From: an uncultured Nitrospirales bacterium
GTDB taxonomy: Bacteria; Nitrospirota; Nitrospiria; Nitrospirales; UBA8639
Assembly: GCA_951812745.1 (NCBI GenBank)
Contig: OX638327.1
Location: 1,947,501 to 2,011,500, forward strand
DNA: 64,000 bases
Direction: 5' to 3'
Shown: in pieces, positions 8,453-64,000 of the stretch
Numbering within the stretch: position 1 is the stretch's first letter
Layout: every line of letters begins with the position of its first letter
The notes under the pieces: model-generated
Database searches by the model: none
Seen by the model: the letters and a program-made list of their open reading frames with translations, nothing else
Told to the model about the DNA's origin: nothing
Made by a program: the position numbers and the translations under genes

Positions 8453-10204
8453 ATGACCGCCACCGAGACTACCCTGCGTAAAGGTATTCGCTACCAGCCT
8501 GATGAAACGCCGCCGGTGCCGCTCGCCTTCGGGCTCGGGCTGCAACTCGTGGTGCTGTGCGTTGCGGGCATCGTCCTGACTCCGGCGATCGTCATCCGGG
8601 CGGCCGGCGGGAGCGAAGCCTTCCTGTCATGGGCCGTGTTTGCCGCGATCCTGGTCAGCGGTGTGACCACGCTGATCCAGGCCATCCGGTTCGGCCGGTT
8701 CGGCGCGGGGTACGTCCTCCTGATGGGCACCTCCGGGGCCTTCATCGCGGTCTGTGTCGCGGCGATCGCCCAAGGCGGACCGGCGATGCTCGCCACCCTG
8801 GTGGTCATTTCCTCGCTCTTCCAGTTCGTGTTTTCCACGTGGCTGTCGCTGTTCAGGCGTCTCCTGACCCCGGCCGTGTCCGGCACGGTCATCATGCTGG
8901 TGGCGGTCACGGTGATGCCGATCATCTTCAACATGCTGAAGAATGTCCCGGAGGGCGTCCCCACGTCGGCCGCGCCGGTCAGCGCCCTCGTCACCTTGCT
9001 CGTCATCGTCGTGATCGCGCTGAAGGCGACCGGCACGTTCCGTCTCTGGGCGCCGGTCATCGGCGTGGTCGTGGGTTCGGTGGTGGCGGCGTTCTACGGG
9101 CTCTACGACGTGGACCGTGTGGCCGAGGCGTCATGGATCGGACTCCCGGACGGTGCATGGCCGGGCTTCGACCTGGAATTCGGATCGGTCTTCTGGGGGC
9201 TGTTGCCGGCGTTCGTGTTCGTGACCCTGGTGGGCGCCATCGAAACCGTCGGCGACGCCGTCGCCATCCAGCGCATAGCCTGGCGCCGTCCCCGGGCCGT
9301 GGATTTCAGGGCGGTGCAGGGCGCCGTGGCCGCGGACGGCGTGGGCAACCTGCTGTCCGGTCTCGCGGGGACCGTGCCGAACACGACCTATTCCACGAGC
9401 GTGTCCGTGGCCGAACTCACCGGCGTCGGCGCCCGCCGCGTGGGCGTGGCCGTGGGGATCCTGTTCCTCGCGATGGCGTTTTTCCCCAAGGTGCTGGCCG
9501 TGATCCTGGCGATCCCGGGTCCGGTGGCTTCGGCGTATCTCACCGTGTTGCTGTCGATGCTCTTCGTGGTCGGCATGCGAGTGGTCTTCCAGGACGGGAT
9601 CGACTACCGCAAGGGGCTGGTCTGTGGCGTCTCGTTCTGGATCGGCGTCGGGTTCCAGAACGGCGTGATTTTCCCCGAGTACTTCTCGGAGTTCGCTGGC
9701 GGTCTGCTCGAGAACGGCATGACGGCGGGCGGGCTCGTGGCCATCCTGATGACCCTGTTCGTGGAGTTGACGGGACACCGGCGCAGCCGGATCCAGGTGG
9801 AGTTCGATATTTCTGCCCTGCCGAAGATCAGCGAGTTTCTGCGGGCGTTCGCCTCCCGCATGGGGTGGGACGCGGCGATGGCCGACCGCCTCGACGCCGT
9901 CGGGGAGGAAGGATTGCTGACGCTGCTCCAGGACAAGAGCGAGGCGGAACGCGGGCAACGGCGCCTGCTGCTGGTCGCGTACGAGGAAGACGGCGGGGCG
10001 CACCTCGAGTTCATTGCCGGCACCGGGGATGAAAACATTCAGGACAGGATCGCGCTGCTCGGCGCGCGGACCGCGGGGGAGTTGATCGAGATCGAGCAGG
10101 AAGTCTCGCTCCGGCTGTTGCGGCACCTCGCGTCTTCGGTCCGCCACCAGCAATACTATGACACGGATATCGTAACCGTCCGCGTGGACAGACCCTCAGC
10201 CTGA
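8453..10204 (+). CDS. NCS2-family nucleobase permease with a C-terminal RsbW-like domain
   Basis: The 583-residue inner-membrane protein begins with an NCS2 (xanthine/uracil permease) fold. PPVPLAFGLGLQLVVL opens the first helix, and roughly a dozen hydrophobic segments run to about residue 450. It should import a purine or pyrimidine with a cation; the substrate is not assignable. Typical family members end near there. This one adds about 130 soluble residues containing DRLDAVGEEGLLTLL, RRLLLVAYEEDGG and EVSLRLLRHLASS, ending DTDIVTVRVD. In order and spacing these resemble a GHKL/RsbW ATPase domain without clear nucleotide-binding residues. The same domain ends a second, partial gene at 63599-64000. 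ATG 8453 was preferred over a start inside the upstream repeat. Confidence 0.85.
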   Translation: MTATETTLRKGIRYQPDETPPVPLAFGLGLQLVVLCVAGIVLTPAIVIRAAGGSEAFLSWAVFAAILVSGVTTLIQAIRFGRFGAGYVLLMGTSGAFIAVCVAAIAQGGPAMLATLVVISSLFQFVFSTWLSLFRRLLTPAVSGTVIMLVAVTVMPIIFNMLKNVPEGVPTSAAPVSALVTLLVIVVIALKATGTFRLWAPVIGVVVGSVVAAFYGLYDVDRVAEASWIGLPDGAWPGFDLEFGSVFWGLLPAFVFVTLVGAIETVGDAVAIQRIAWRRPRAVDFRAVQGAVAADGVGNLLSGLAGTVPNTTYSTSVSVAELTGVGARRVGVAVGILFLAMAFFPKVLAVILAIPGPVASAYLTVLLSMLFVVGMRVVFQDGIDYRKGLVCGVSFWIGVGFQNGVIFPEYFSEFAGGLLENGMTAGGLVAILMTLFVELTGHRRSRIQVEFDISALPKISEFLRAFASRMGWDAAMADRLDAVGEEGLLTLLQDKSEAERGQRRLLLVAYEEDGGAHLEFIAGTGDENIQDRIALLGARTAGELIEIEQEVSLRLLRHLASSVRHQQYYDTDIVTVRVDRPSA

Positions 10205-10338: not shown

Positions 10339-10956
10339 CTATTTCTTCATCACATCAACCACGCGCCCAGCAAATCTGTAGTTGTCGTTCTCGTGAATAA
10401 AAATTGGAAGATGTTCCTTAGTCGATTCCGATTTAAGAATAATCCTTTTGTTTTTCCGATCGTGAACAAATCGCTTAATGTTTGCCATTTCATCTATTAC
10501 CGAGATTATGTAATGTCCCGGTTCTGGATTCGATTGCTCTGCGTCAACTATGACAAAATCGCCGTCTTCAATATTCCTCCCATTGATATTCGCCTTGTTC
10601 ATGGAACTACCTTCTGCGCGCAATACAAATAACTTTCCGCCCCGAGGAACCAATTTCTTTGATACCTTCAGGTAGCCAGTAACATTTTCGTCTGCAAAGA
10701 TCGTTGCGGGCCCGCAATTGGCAGAACCGACGATAGGCAGGGATACGAAACCTTCTTTGGAAATTTTTTGTACTCTCCTGATTTCCCGTCTTGCAGGATT
10801 GTAGGCAATAAAGCCATTTTTAGATAATTGTGTAAGATGGTGTTTGATCTTCTGTGCGGATTTCTCACCTACAAGGCCACCGATATCGCGCAGAGTCATA
10901 CCTGAAAGATTTTCCCGCCCGATTGCTCTTAATAGTTTTTCTTGCAATTTATGCAT
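10339..10956 (-). CDS. LexA-like self-cleaving transcriptional repressor (S24 peptidase)
   Basis: The 205-residue protein has an N-terminal helical DNA-binding region (about 1-65) and a C-terminal LexA/UmuD-type serine peptidase. Visible elements are the likely self-cleavage site Cys81-Gly82 in GSANCGPA, catalytic Ser118 in AEGSSMN, and catalytic Lys161 in ANIKRF. Such repressors cleave themselves when RecA filaments form, inducing target genes after DNA damage. A near-consensus promoter puts the transcript start almost on ATG 10956, so the message is probably leaderless; a TTG 27 bases further upstream would lie within the promoter. It diverges from a 47-aa basic protein and sits at the edge of a lower-GC island. 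It could be a phage-type repressor rather than the global LexA. Confidence 0.87.
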   Translation of the reverse strand: MHKLQEKLLRAIGRENLSGMTLRDIGGLVGEKSAQKIKHHLTQLSKNGFIAYNPARREIRRVQKISKEGFVSLPIVGSANCGPATIFADENVTGYLKVSKKLVPRGGKLFVLRAEGSSMNKANINGRNIEDGDFVIVDAEQSNPEPGHYIISVIDEMANIKRFVHDRKNKRIILKSESTKEHLPIFIHENDNYRFAGRVVDVMKK

Positions 10957-10964
10957 GCTTTCGT

Positions 10965-10993
10965 AGTATAGGGGTTCTGTCAATGTTTATCAA
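10965..10993 (-). promoter_or_regulatory. Promoter of the LexA-like repressor
   Basis: On the minus strand, TTGATA (10988-10993) and TATACT (10965-10970) are separated by 17 bases. Transcription would begin at or a few bases before ATG 10956. Confidence 0.7.
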
Positions 10994-14809: not shown

Positions 14810-15148
14810 ATGAGTTTGGCTGATAAGCAATGCGTGCCGTGTCGCGGGGGGGTGCCGGCGCTGGAACCGGCGAAGGTGCAGGAGTTGTTGGGGCAATTGG
14901 ACCAGGGATGGGCGTTGAATGCCGAGGGGCACATCGAGCGCCAGTACGAATTCAAGGACTTTGCGGAGGCCCTGGCGTTCGTGAATGCGGTGGGCGCGAT
15001 TGCCGAGACAGAAGGCCATCATCCCGACCTGTTTTTGGCGTGGGGCCGGTGCAAGGTGGAAATCTGGACGCATAAGATCCACGGGCTCACGGAAAGCGAT
15101 TTTTACCTGGCGGCCAAGGCCGACCGGGTCTTCACGGGCAATGGCTGA
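14810..15148 (+). CDS. phhB: 4a-hydroxytetrahydrobiopterin dehydratase (pterin carbinolamine dehydratase)
   Basis: The 112-residue protein has the family signature ETEGHHPDLFLAWGRCKVEI followed by WTH and the closing LTESDF, the histidine-rich active site that dehydrates 4a-hydroxytetrahydropterins. In bacteria this recycles the cofactor of aromatic amino acid hydroxylases, though many copies stand without a hydroxylase, as here. Its stop overlaps the start of the radical SAM gene by eight bases, so the two are translationally coupled. The functional link is unexplained. Confidence 0.93.
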   Translation: MSLADKQCVPCRGGVPALEPAKVQELLGQLDQGWALNAEGHIERQYEFKDFAEALAFVNAVGAIAETEGHHPDLFLAWGRCKVEIWTHKIHGLTESDFYLAAKADRVFTGNG

Positions 15149-17069
15149 TCCTCTCATCACGATTGAGCCGTCCGCTGAAGCCGGCCCCGCGCTCGCGGAA
15201 GAACCCTGGGGCGATCCGGACGGCATCCCGCAGGTGGCCCTGGTCACCATGCCGTTCGGGTATTCCAAATTCCCGTCCATTCAACTCGGCACGCTCTCCC
15301 GGGTCTTGAAGAACCACGGCATCGGCTCCAGGAGTTATCACTTCAACCTGCTGTTTGCCAATCGCATCGGTGTCCCGCTCTACGAAGTGTTGTGCGAAAA
15401 ACGCGGCATGATCGGCGAGTGGTTGTTCTCGTCGATACTCTTCCGGGACAACCCGAAGCACGCCCAGTACCCCGACGTGTTCAAGCCCGTGTTTGAGAGC
15501 ACGGCTCAAGAGGCCGGATGTTCCACGGGGTACCTGGAAGAGATCGCCCACACCATCGCGCCGCAATTTCTCACCGAGCTGCTGACCTCCTACGACTGGG
15601 GGCAATTCAAGGTGGTGGGGTTCACGTCCACCTTCGACCAGAACGTGGCGAGCCTGACCCTGGCGAAATTGATCAAGGAACTGTATCCCGCGGTCCGCAT
15701 CGTGTTCGGCGGGGCCAACTTCGACGGGGAGATGGGCCTGGAGCATTTCCGGGCGTTTCCCTGGATCGATTACGTGGTGGTCGGCGAAGGCGAGGAGGTG
15801 TTTCCCGCCTTGGCGAAAAACGTGTTGCGCGGTCAGGAGAACGCGCTCCCCTCCGGGGTGGCCTTTCGCAAAGATGGAGAGATCCGGTTCCAGCCCAACA
15901 CCACGCTCTTTTCCGATTTTACCGGGGTCGGGCCGCCGGACTACGATGATTATTTCGACATGGTGCGGGAGCTGGAGGGCCAAGGCTCGACCGGGCTCAA
16001 CCGGATTTTGTTGTACGAAGGGTCACGCGGTTGCTGGTGGGGCGAAAAACATCACTGCACGTTCTGCGGGTTGAACGCGCAGGCCATGAAGTTTCGCGCC
16101 AAGTCTTCCGACCAGGTGGCCCGGGAAATGGACGGGCTCTCCAGCCGCTATAACACGACGCGCTTCAGGCTGGTGGACAACATCATCGACCTGAAATATA
16201 TCGACACGCTGTTCGGCCGGTTCGCCGCCGGGCACTATGACCTGGACGTGTTCATGGAGACCAAGGCCAACCTGACCAAGCAGCAGATCCGGACCCTGGC
16301 GCAAGGCGGGGTGAAGTGCATGCAGCCGGGTATCGAAAGCCTGAGCGCCGCGCAGCTCAAGGAGATGGATAAAGGCGTCAGCCCGCTCCAGAACGTCCAG
16401 TGTTTGAAATGGAGCCGGTATTACAACCTGGACATCAACTGGAACATCCTGCTGGGCTTCCCGCAGGAGACCGACGCGGACTACCGGCGCCAGATTGCGC
16501 TCATTCCCTCACTGTTTCATCTCCAGCCGCCTGAAAGCACGGGCAAACTGTGGCTGGAACGATTCAGCCCCTATTTCATGCGTCCCGAAGACTACGGCGT
16601 GCGCATTACCGGACCGGGCGCGGCGTACGAATACGTGTACGACGCGAGGAAAGTGGACCTGAACAAGATCGCGTACGATTTCGAATACGAGATCGACTGG
16701 AAGGTGGACCCGGGCCTCTACGAACGGTTGTGCGCGCTCGTGCAGGAATGGCGGGCCCGGTATTTCTCGCAGGACCGCCCGTTTCTGTTCTATGCCAAGG
16801 CCATGAGTTACGTGACCGTCTACGACGGTCGGACCGATCAGCCCACGAGCGAACGGTTCGATTGGCCGCTTGCGTTTGTCATCGAGTATTGTAATGAGGC
16901 CCCGAAAACGCTCGAGCAAATCCGGCGGGCTTCAGCGGACGATCCGGCGGCGTTGACATCGGCGACTTCCATTGACGACGCGGTCGCCACCCTCGTGACG
17001 AAACGGATCCTGGTTGAGGATAAGGGGCGCTTCCTGACCCTGGCCCTGCCGGTCAATCCGCATCTGTAG
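15141..17069 (+). CDS. Cobalamin-binding radical SAM protein, RiPP-maturation C-methyltransferase type
   Basis: The 642-residue protein has an N-terminal B12-binding domain (about 30-200, with VGEGEEVFPAL) and a radical SAM core. The cluster cysteines are C298, C306 and C309 in SRGCWWGEKHHCTFCGLN, a CX7CX2C spacing rather than the usual CX3CX2C. That signature and the following MKFRAKS match proteins I know as RiPP maturation radical SAM C-methyltransferases, which methylate unactivated carbons in ribosomal peptides. No clear precursor peptide or protease is adjacent. ATG 15141 overlaps the pterin dehydratase stop. The long C-terminal region (about 480-642) is unassigned. A small-molecule substrate remains possible. 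Confidence 0.85.
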   Translation: MADPLITIEPSAEAGPALAEEPWGDPDGIPQVALVTMPFGYSKFPSIQLGTLSRVLKNHGIGSRSYHFNLLFANRIGVPLYEVLCEKRGMIGEWLFSSILFRDNPKHAQYPDVFKPVFESTAQEAGCSTGYLEEIAHTIAPQFLTELLTSYDWGQFKVVGFTSTFDQNVASLTLAKLIKELYPAVRIVFGGANFDGEMGLEHFRAFPWIDYVVVGEGEEVFPALAKNVLRGQENALPSGVAFRKDGEIRFQPNTTLFSDFTGVGPPDYDDYFDMVRELEGQGSTGLNRILLYEGSRGCWWGEKHHCTFCGLNAQAMKFRAKSSDQVAREMDGLSSRYNTTRFRLVDNIIDLKYIDTLFGRFAAGHYDLDVFMETKANLTKQQIRTLAQGGVKCMQPGIESLSAAQLKEMDKGVSPLQNVQCLKWSRYYNLDINWNILLGFPQETDADYRRQIALIPSLFHLQPPESTGKLWLERFSPYFMRPEDYGVRITGPGAAYEYVYDARKVDLNKIAYDFEYEIDWKVDPGLYERLCALVQEWRARYFSQDRPFLFYAKAMSYVTVYDGRTDQPTSERFDWPLAFVIEYCNEAPKTLEQIRRASADDPAALTSATSIDDAVATLVTKRILVEDKGRFLTLALPVNPHL

Positions 17070-63067: not shown

Positions 63068-63487
63068 ATGAAGCCGATTACCCTTACCCCAGATTTGTCC
63101 TCGATTGCGGAACTGGAGCAGGTGCTGGAAGACTTTGCCAGTGCCCACGAACTGGATATGGGATTGCAAAATCGCCTGAATCTGATGCTCGAAGAACTAA
63201 TCACCAATAGCGTGAACTACTCCCTGCAAACGGTGTCCGAACCGGAACTGGAGTTATGGCTGTCTCTGGAAAAAACGTGTGTCGTGGCTCGGCTTGAAGA
63301 TAACGGACCCGCGTTCAACCCGTTCGACGACGCACCCGAAGCGGATACCACATCATCCCTGGAGGATCGGCCCGTTGGGGGGCTGGGCATCTATCTCACG
63401 AAAAAGTTTGCGGATGAATACGCTTACGAGCGGGTTAGCGAGCGTAACCGCGTGACCTTGCGGTGCAAAATTGGAAAACTCCCCTAA
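63068..63487 (+). CDS. RsbW/SpoIIAB-like ATP-binding protein (HATPase)
   Basis: The 139-residue protein has all three GHKL boxes: N-box NLMLEELITNSVNY, G1 ARLEDNGPAFNPFD and G2 GGLGIYLTKKFADEY. Stand-alone proteins of this kind are anti-sigma factor serine kinases that hold a sigma factor and are released by an anti-anti-sigma protein. No STAS or PP2C gene is visible nearby. It converges with the partial permease gene at 63599, whose C-terminal domain looks related. ATG 63068 is preferred; GTG 63044 is possible. Confidence 0.9.
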   Translation: MKPITLTPDLSSIAELEQVLEDFASAHELDMGLQNRLNLMLEELITNSVNYSLQTVSEPELELWLSLEKTCVVARLEDNGPAFNPFDDAPEADTTSSLEDRPVGGLGIYLTKKFADEYAYERVSERNRVTLRCKIGKLP

Positions 63488-63598: not shown

Positions 63599-64000
63599 TC
63601 ACGTCCGGCCGCTGCGAACCGGCCCTGCGGCTTCCACGCGGAGGGTCACGATGTCCGTGCCATGGTATTGCTGGTGGCGAACCGAGGACGCAAGGTGCCG
63701 TAACAAGCGCAGTGAAATTTCCTGTTCGACCAGGGCTTCGTCGATCCGTGCGCCAAGCAGCGCGATCCGGTCCTGCAGGTTTTCTGCGCCGGTCGAGGCA
63801 ATGAACTCAAGGACTGCCCCGTTCTCTTCCTTGTAGGCAACCAAAAGCAAGCGTCGTGTGCGGCCCTCTCCGGCCTCGTCCCGTCGTATGAGCGTCAGTA
63901 GCGTCTCCTCGCCGCCGGCGTCGAGCCGGTTCGCCGTGTCCGTATCCCAACCGCTTTGGGCCGCGAATCCGAAAAGAAACTCCCTGATCCTCGGCAGAGC
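63599..64000 (-). CDS. C-terminal part of a second NCS2-type permease with RsbW-like domain (partial)
   Basis: The 133 visible residues end a gene whose start lies beyond the window. They match, position by position, the C-terminus of the permease at 8453-10204: ALPRIREFLFGFAAQSGWDT versus ALPKISEFLRAFASRMGWDA, then NRLDAGGEETLLTL, RRLLLVAYKEENG and ISLRLLRHLASSVRHQQYHGTDIVTLRV. The membrane part is assumed from the paralogue and not seen. Confidence 0.85.
   Translation of the reverse strand, partial: ALPRIREFLFGFAAQSGWDTDTANRLDAGGEETLLTLIRRDEAGEGRTRRLLLVAYKEENGAVLEFIASTGAENLQDRIALLGARIDEALVEQEISLRLLRHLASSVRHQQYHGTDIVTLRVEAAGPVRSGRT

Follow-up and report, generated by a model that had tools for sequence, protein, structure and literature searches.

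A UraA-fold membrane protein family carrying a degenerate RsbW/SpoIIAB-type domain at its C-terminus

The 64,000-nucleotide stretch of DNA analysed here (the window) encodes an NCS2-fold membrane protein, which we call copy A, with a predicted degenerate GHKL domain of the RsbW/SpoIIAB type as its C-terminal tail. An initial annotation had proposed this architecture from the letters of the sequence, and it was borne out by the profile searches of the membrane part and by modelling of the tail. The 3' part of a second such fusion, copy B, lies at the far end of the window (Table 1). What is new is the joining of a known membrane fold to a known, catalytically dead partner-switching fold; the literature search, with most subscription journals outside its reach, found no published description of an NCS2-RsbW fusion. 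We propose, with a probability of roughly 0.45, that the tail is a non-catalytic docking module that would couple a UraA-fold receptor or transporter to STAS/RsbW partner switching. The fold itself is near certain, while the link to partner switching is circumstantial.

Table 1. Positions in the window of the two fusion genes, their domains and motifs, and the neighbouring RsbW-like gene
Feature	Position	Strand	Basis
Copy A, NCS2-fold membrane protein with C-terminal pseudo-RsbW domain, 583 aa	8453..10204	+	Open reading frame (ATG 8453, stop 10204) and start; PF00860, 2.4e-51
NCS2/UraA-fold transport domain, aa 28-436	8534..9760	+	Pfam and NCBIfam profiles; comparison with UapA residues
C-terminal degenerate SpoIIAB/RsbW-type GHKL domain, aa 440-583 (~140 aa)	9770..10201	+	AF2 model; Foldseek; PF13581 matches of homologues
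N-box relic, with the EE pair still present at aa 485-486 and Thr at aa 490 in place of the Mg-binding Asn	9905..9922	+	hhalign register; count over 65 fusions
LEFIAGTG at the G1-box position, retaining the Glu but not the Asp and Gly	10004..10027	+	Strand order in the model; count over 65 fusions
Family-specific motif in place of the G2 box, EVSLRLLRHLASSVRHQQY	10100..10156	+	Invariant columns in alignment A1
Genuine RsbW-like HATPase_c_2 protein, essentially one per genome of the genus	63068..63487	+	PF13581, 1.3e-19; search of the genus
Copy B, 3' part of the second fusion	63599..64000	-	Homologue searches; relatives in the genus

Searched alone, the copy A tail has no match in Pfam or PHROGs, and its relationship is therefore visible only through homologues and fold comparison. 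Homologues were gathered with a tail query and with a whole-protein query. Among 32 homologous tails, nine match the HATPase_c_2 profile (PF13581; best 8.8e-4); most of the divergent members also match it, at up to 1.9e-5, and one tail (L063) scores 28.8 bits, above the curated cut-off of 27.4. An AlphaFold model of the tail, made from the 32 homologues, has a pLDDT of 81 and the element order beta-alpha-alpha-beta-beta-alpha-lid-alpha-beta-beta, which is the order found in SpoIIAB. The initial annotation had suggested comparing a predicted structure of the tail with HATPase_c_2 folds; indeed, all of the 20 best PDB matches of the model in Foldseek were SpoIIAB, UsfX or RsbW (best E 8.4e-7, probability 1.00). 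When the tail profile was aligned by hhalign with a profile of genuine RsbW proteins, the two matched over the N-terminal 76 columns, half of the domain (E 4e-5, probability 70%). The tail profile also matches the RsbW protein of the window (7.5e-5), and RsbW proteins of the genus match it at 2e-5 to 9e-4. A full-length model of copy A, predicted without an alignment, reached a pLDDT of only 44. As the weak sequence matches and the strong structural match point the same way, we have very little doubt that the tail belongs to the RsbW/SpoIIAB type. The motif parallels that the annotation drew with the window's RsbW stand for the N-box and the C-terminal part, but its G1 box at LLLVAYEEDGG lies one strand too early: by strand order in the model, G1 falls at aa 518-525.

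The annotation had further stated that the metal-binding Asn and the glycine boxes are lost, and this holds throughout the family. Among 65 distinct full-length fusions, the Mg-binding Asn of the N-box is present in 0/65 and the Asp of G1 in 0/65, while both Glu of the N-box helix (the EE pair) and the Glu on the G1 strand are kept in 65/65. In the aligned tails the G2 glycines are replaced by SLRLLRH. An alignment of 32 tails spanning phyla has 27 invariant columns, many of which fall in the C-terminal motif LRLLRH...HQQY..TD. Within the genus, the tail has a dN/dS of 0.17 among copies A and of 0.24 among copies B; by this computation the tail is under purifying selection, and as judged from its sequence it is a retained pseudokinase, not a product of decay. 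A search for an ancestral, less degenerate fusion with an intact ATP site found none; in the nearest (L095), TM10 (ENIS) is partly canonical and G2 (GVRLTILKK) is half preserved, and the N-box Asn is absent there too.

The start codon of copy A is backed by aligned starts in relatives, and residues 28-401 match Xan_ur_permease (PF00860, 2.4e-51, 175 bits) over profile positions 6-383 of 389. The more specific NCBIfam scores fall short: ncs2 gives 188 bits against a cut-off of 292, the best model, PbuX, gives 211 bits against 414, and TIGR03173 and TIGR00801 match below their cut-offs. We took the roles of the substrate-site residues from work on UapA, where the site is formed by E356 (the TM8 Glu), Q408 and N409 (TM10), D388, and Q85 and H86 (TM1) (PMC3405029). 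Copy A retains Q31, E264, D268 and D295, corresponding to UapA Q85, E356, D360 and D388, and departs from UapA at L32 (H86), T315 (Q408), S316 (N409) and S318 (G411), so that the set of a nucleobase permease is incomplete, with the TM10 Q408/N409 and TM1 His equivalents replaced. In the copies B of the genus, the eight UapA-critical sites read Q,L,Q,A,A,T,T,S in 9/9, with only Q85 kept. These losses leave nucleobase transport unproven in copy A and make it unlikely in copy B, which would more likely be a receptor or scaffold. The TM10 Q/E-N-x-G signature is missing from nearly all fusions, and the TM8 Glu has been substituted on at least three separate branches of the tree. The nucleobase uptake or sensing that the annotation envisaged is thus doubtful, both for copy A, given its lost Q408, N409 and TM1 His equivalents, and for uptake by the family at large. 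The membrane part of copy A may still carry a substrate, though a standard nucleobase is improbable; it could be some other compound, since a change at Q408 by itself can alter specificity, for example in ascorbate carriers (PMC3405029). Around copy A, a LexA-like repressor gene lies convergent with it at 10339-10983 (-) (TIGR00498, 1.8e-22, below cut-off), and a RiPP-maturation radical SAM C-methyltransferase gene is found at 15135-17066 (+) (TIGR03975, 8e-180), homologues of which also lie close to copy A in four relatives.

The tail is conserved as a fusion far beyond the window genome, with at least 65 distinct full-length fusions found in Nitrospirota, Dadabacteria, Gammaproteobacteria and Paracoccaceae. 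All matches to the tail query were full NCS2-tail fusions, with tail identities of 42-92%. Of the 14 genomes in the window's genus, 12 carry the fusion, mostly as two or three copies each; it is also present in two further families of the same phylum, in 13/58 genomes of the Dadabacteria group and, rarely, in Gammaproteobacteria (3/369 genomes); a sample across Pseudomonadota, searched with a different query, yielded 2/398. At the larger locus L075 the fusion has 597 aa, and a 1448-aa open frame at another fusion (L080) was rejected as an upstream start artefact. A plasmid search returned only ordinary NCS2 proteins, with 27-28% identity over about three quarters of the query. Since phyla are mixed on the fusion tree, horizontal transfer of the fusion is suggested. 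Several source names of fusion-bearing genomes belong to what we take to be sponge-symbiont projects.

Some of the fusions lacking the TM8 Glu lie beside polyketide synthase (PKS) or phosphopantetheinyl transferase genes (L087:675-12165; L135:6949-10417; L136; L147; L013:8544-9293). In Nitrospirota and Dadabacteria, the neighbours of such fusions are genes for large PKSs, for Sfp-type phosphopantetheinyl transferases and for an alpha/beta hydrolase; at L087 the fusion begins 44 bp past the PKS gene on the same strand, and in the gammaproteobacterium (L013) the fusion has only the phosphopantetheinyl transferase gene as such a neighbour. Two tandem fusion genes at L078:8892-12252 both lack the TM8 Glu. 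The location of some copies in PKS clusters suggests a role unrelated to sigma control and counts against the partner-switching reading.

The connection with partner switching comes mainly from copy B. In the window genome only its last ~180 aa survive, in an open frame that runs beyond the window to L003:5774, and the tail lies ~110 bp from the RsbW gene. The transporter part of this truncated copy (63599-64000 (-), L003:5100-5774) is deleted, while the tail frame is intact with a dN/dS of 0.15 against the nearest whole copy, and the tail might survive as a free-standing domain. In relatives from the genus copy B is whole, and the dN/dS of its membrane part is 0.12. It is convergent with the RsbW gene, at distances of about -3 to 124 bp, in the six genus genomes examined, and coordinates place RsbW beside copy B in four more (G003, G009, G011, G013), making ten genomes. 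A STAS gene lies 0.8-1.0 kb from the copy B end in five of the six and is also close by in the sixth (from L036); a response-regulator/SpoIIE phosphatase gene comes next at 5/6 of the loci, and further on lie a periplasmic binding protein gene in four genomes and a histidine kinase gene in five. In the window genome, the SpoIIE and STAS genes are located away from copy B, at C1:104830-106382, with the STAS gene at C1:106071-106382. In the two genus genomes without the fusion, RsbW, the SpoIIE phosphatase and STAS proteins are all missing too, a co-loss that may reflect genome reduction because both are the smallest of the genus.

In another genus, an NCS2 homologue is divergent from an RsbW gene at a distance of 76 bp (L035/L076:9033-11304, genome G022), but a gap of ~100 N falls exactly at the start of the tail and makes it unreadable; gaps of ~100 N occur at many genes of this genome. 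A gammaproteobacterial fusion is convergent, at 94 bp, with a gene for an HTH-HATPase_c_2-DUF4325 (STAS-like) protein. Over 20 genomes with 37 fusion loci, three next-door HATPase genes were observed against 0.24 expected (P 0.002), and five HATPase/STAS matches within 5 kb against 1.44 expected (P 0.016), values that are indicative only, as they are post hoc, rest on rounded genome sizes and count each locus as an independent case. At most of the 37 loci no partner-switching gene is found nearby, nor is there one beside copy A in the window; the set of RsbW kinase, STAS protein and PP2C phosphatase that accompanies genus copy B is found neither next to copy A nor next to most fusions elsewhere. 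The link to a partner-switching regulator put forward in the initial annotation is thus sustained in part, by copy B next to RsbW and by adjoining HATPase_c_2 genes in two other lineages, and goes without support at copy A and most other loci. At one locus (L081:5091-7247), the fusion gene has, ~1.2 kb upstream on the same strand, a gene for a SulP-like, STAS-containing protein. Genome-wide, all 20 fusion-bearing genomes tested encode a short STAS protein, compared with STAS proteins in 10/14 control genomes, and a stand-alone RsbW was not seen in three carriers (G267, G1085, G1089).

Because it has no ATP site, the tail would act by binding. Candidate partners are a STAS protein, RsbW itself and the membrane part in cis; under the docking reading, the tail would most likely dock a STAS-type antagonist or pair with RsbW; the membrane domain could then pass its state on to a partner-switching regulator, or be controlled by the state of that regulator. 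Since 20/20 carriers have a short STAS protein and three have no stand-alone RsbW, STAS is the more general candidate, an argument weakened by STAS proteins being common in bacteria. A narrower and rather unlikely version of the docking reading, confined to proteins of the copy B type, would make them non-transporting ligand receptors whose pseudokinase tail competes with RsbW for the STAS antagonist or caps RsbW.

The most serious alternative, to which we attach a tentative but substantial likelihood, is that the tail serves in cis as a regulatory or assembly module, packing on the membrane part or dimerising and so tuning transport, much like the STAS domain of SLC26, with neither a partner nor a link to sigma factors. 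The conservation of the architecture at the many loci without partner-switching neighbours argues for it, as does the fact that both halves have dimerising relatives, since SpoIIAB/RsbW proteins form dimers. So do UraA-fold transporters (PMC6497670), and in SLC26 proteins deletion of the STAS domain impairs transport and does not abolish dimerisation (PMC6497670). Such a module would, however, leave unexplained why copy B is conserved without its substrate-site residues and beside an RsbW gene. It is improbable, though not far-fetched, that the ATP pocket has instead been remodelled for another small molecule, for example the transported solute, with feedback on transport: the conserved E485, E486, E519, N528, D531, R554, H558 and HQQY sit on elements that frame the old nucleotide pocket, but they are placed there by element order and not in space, and could equally form a protein interface. 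That the tail is a leftover of a decaying fusion with no present function would fit the loss of all nucleotide-binding motifs, yet we give this hardly any credence in view of the low dN/dS (0.17-0.24), the 27 columns invariant across phyla and the finding of only full-length fusions apart from remnants.

Compared with the NCS2/SLC23 permeases UraA, XanQ, UapA and PbuX, the fusions share the PF00860 domain and, in copy A, the TM8 Glu and Asp, but lack the TM10 signature and the TM1 His and carry an extra domain; copy B is also without the remaining substrate-site residues. The tail has the fold, topology, sequence homology and N-box-helix EE pair of the anti-sigma serine kinases RsbW, SpoIIAB and UsfX (HATPase_c_2), but not their Mg-binding Asn, G1 Asp and G2 glycines, and it is fused to a membrane protein. 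Partner-switching modules composed of RsbW, RsbV/STAS and PP2C resemble the genus copy B loci, where the fusion adjoins an RsbW gene and where STAS and response-regulator/SpoIIE genes are usually present too; to our knowledge, no membrane pseudo-transporter with a pseudo-RsbW tail has been recognised as a member of such a module. The closest parallel is SLC26/SulP, which shares the 7+7 inverted-repeat membrane fold with SLC23/NCS2 (PMC6497670) and likewise has a cytosolic domain from the partner-switching toolkit directly after the last TM helix. In SLC26 this domain is STAS, whereas in the NCS2 fusion it is the opposite partner, the SpoIIAB/RsbW-type kinase fold; SLC23 proteins are said to have no C-terminal domain (PMC6497670). 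A transporter with a role in signalling has a precedent in the SLC26 protein DauA (PMC5703999).

The family thus presents the anti-sigma kinase fold, the other half of the partner-switching pair, fused to a transporter of SLC26's membrane fold, and offers an independent instance, open to experimental test, in which a transporter has gained a partner-switching domain. The matched paralogues within one genome, with the substrate site largely kept in one and lost in the other, could serve to separate transport from signalling. If the receptor role considered for the copy B type is true, these proteins would feed a membrane signal directly into partner switching and be the mirror image of the SLC26-STAS arrangement.
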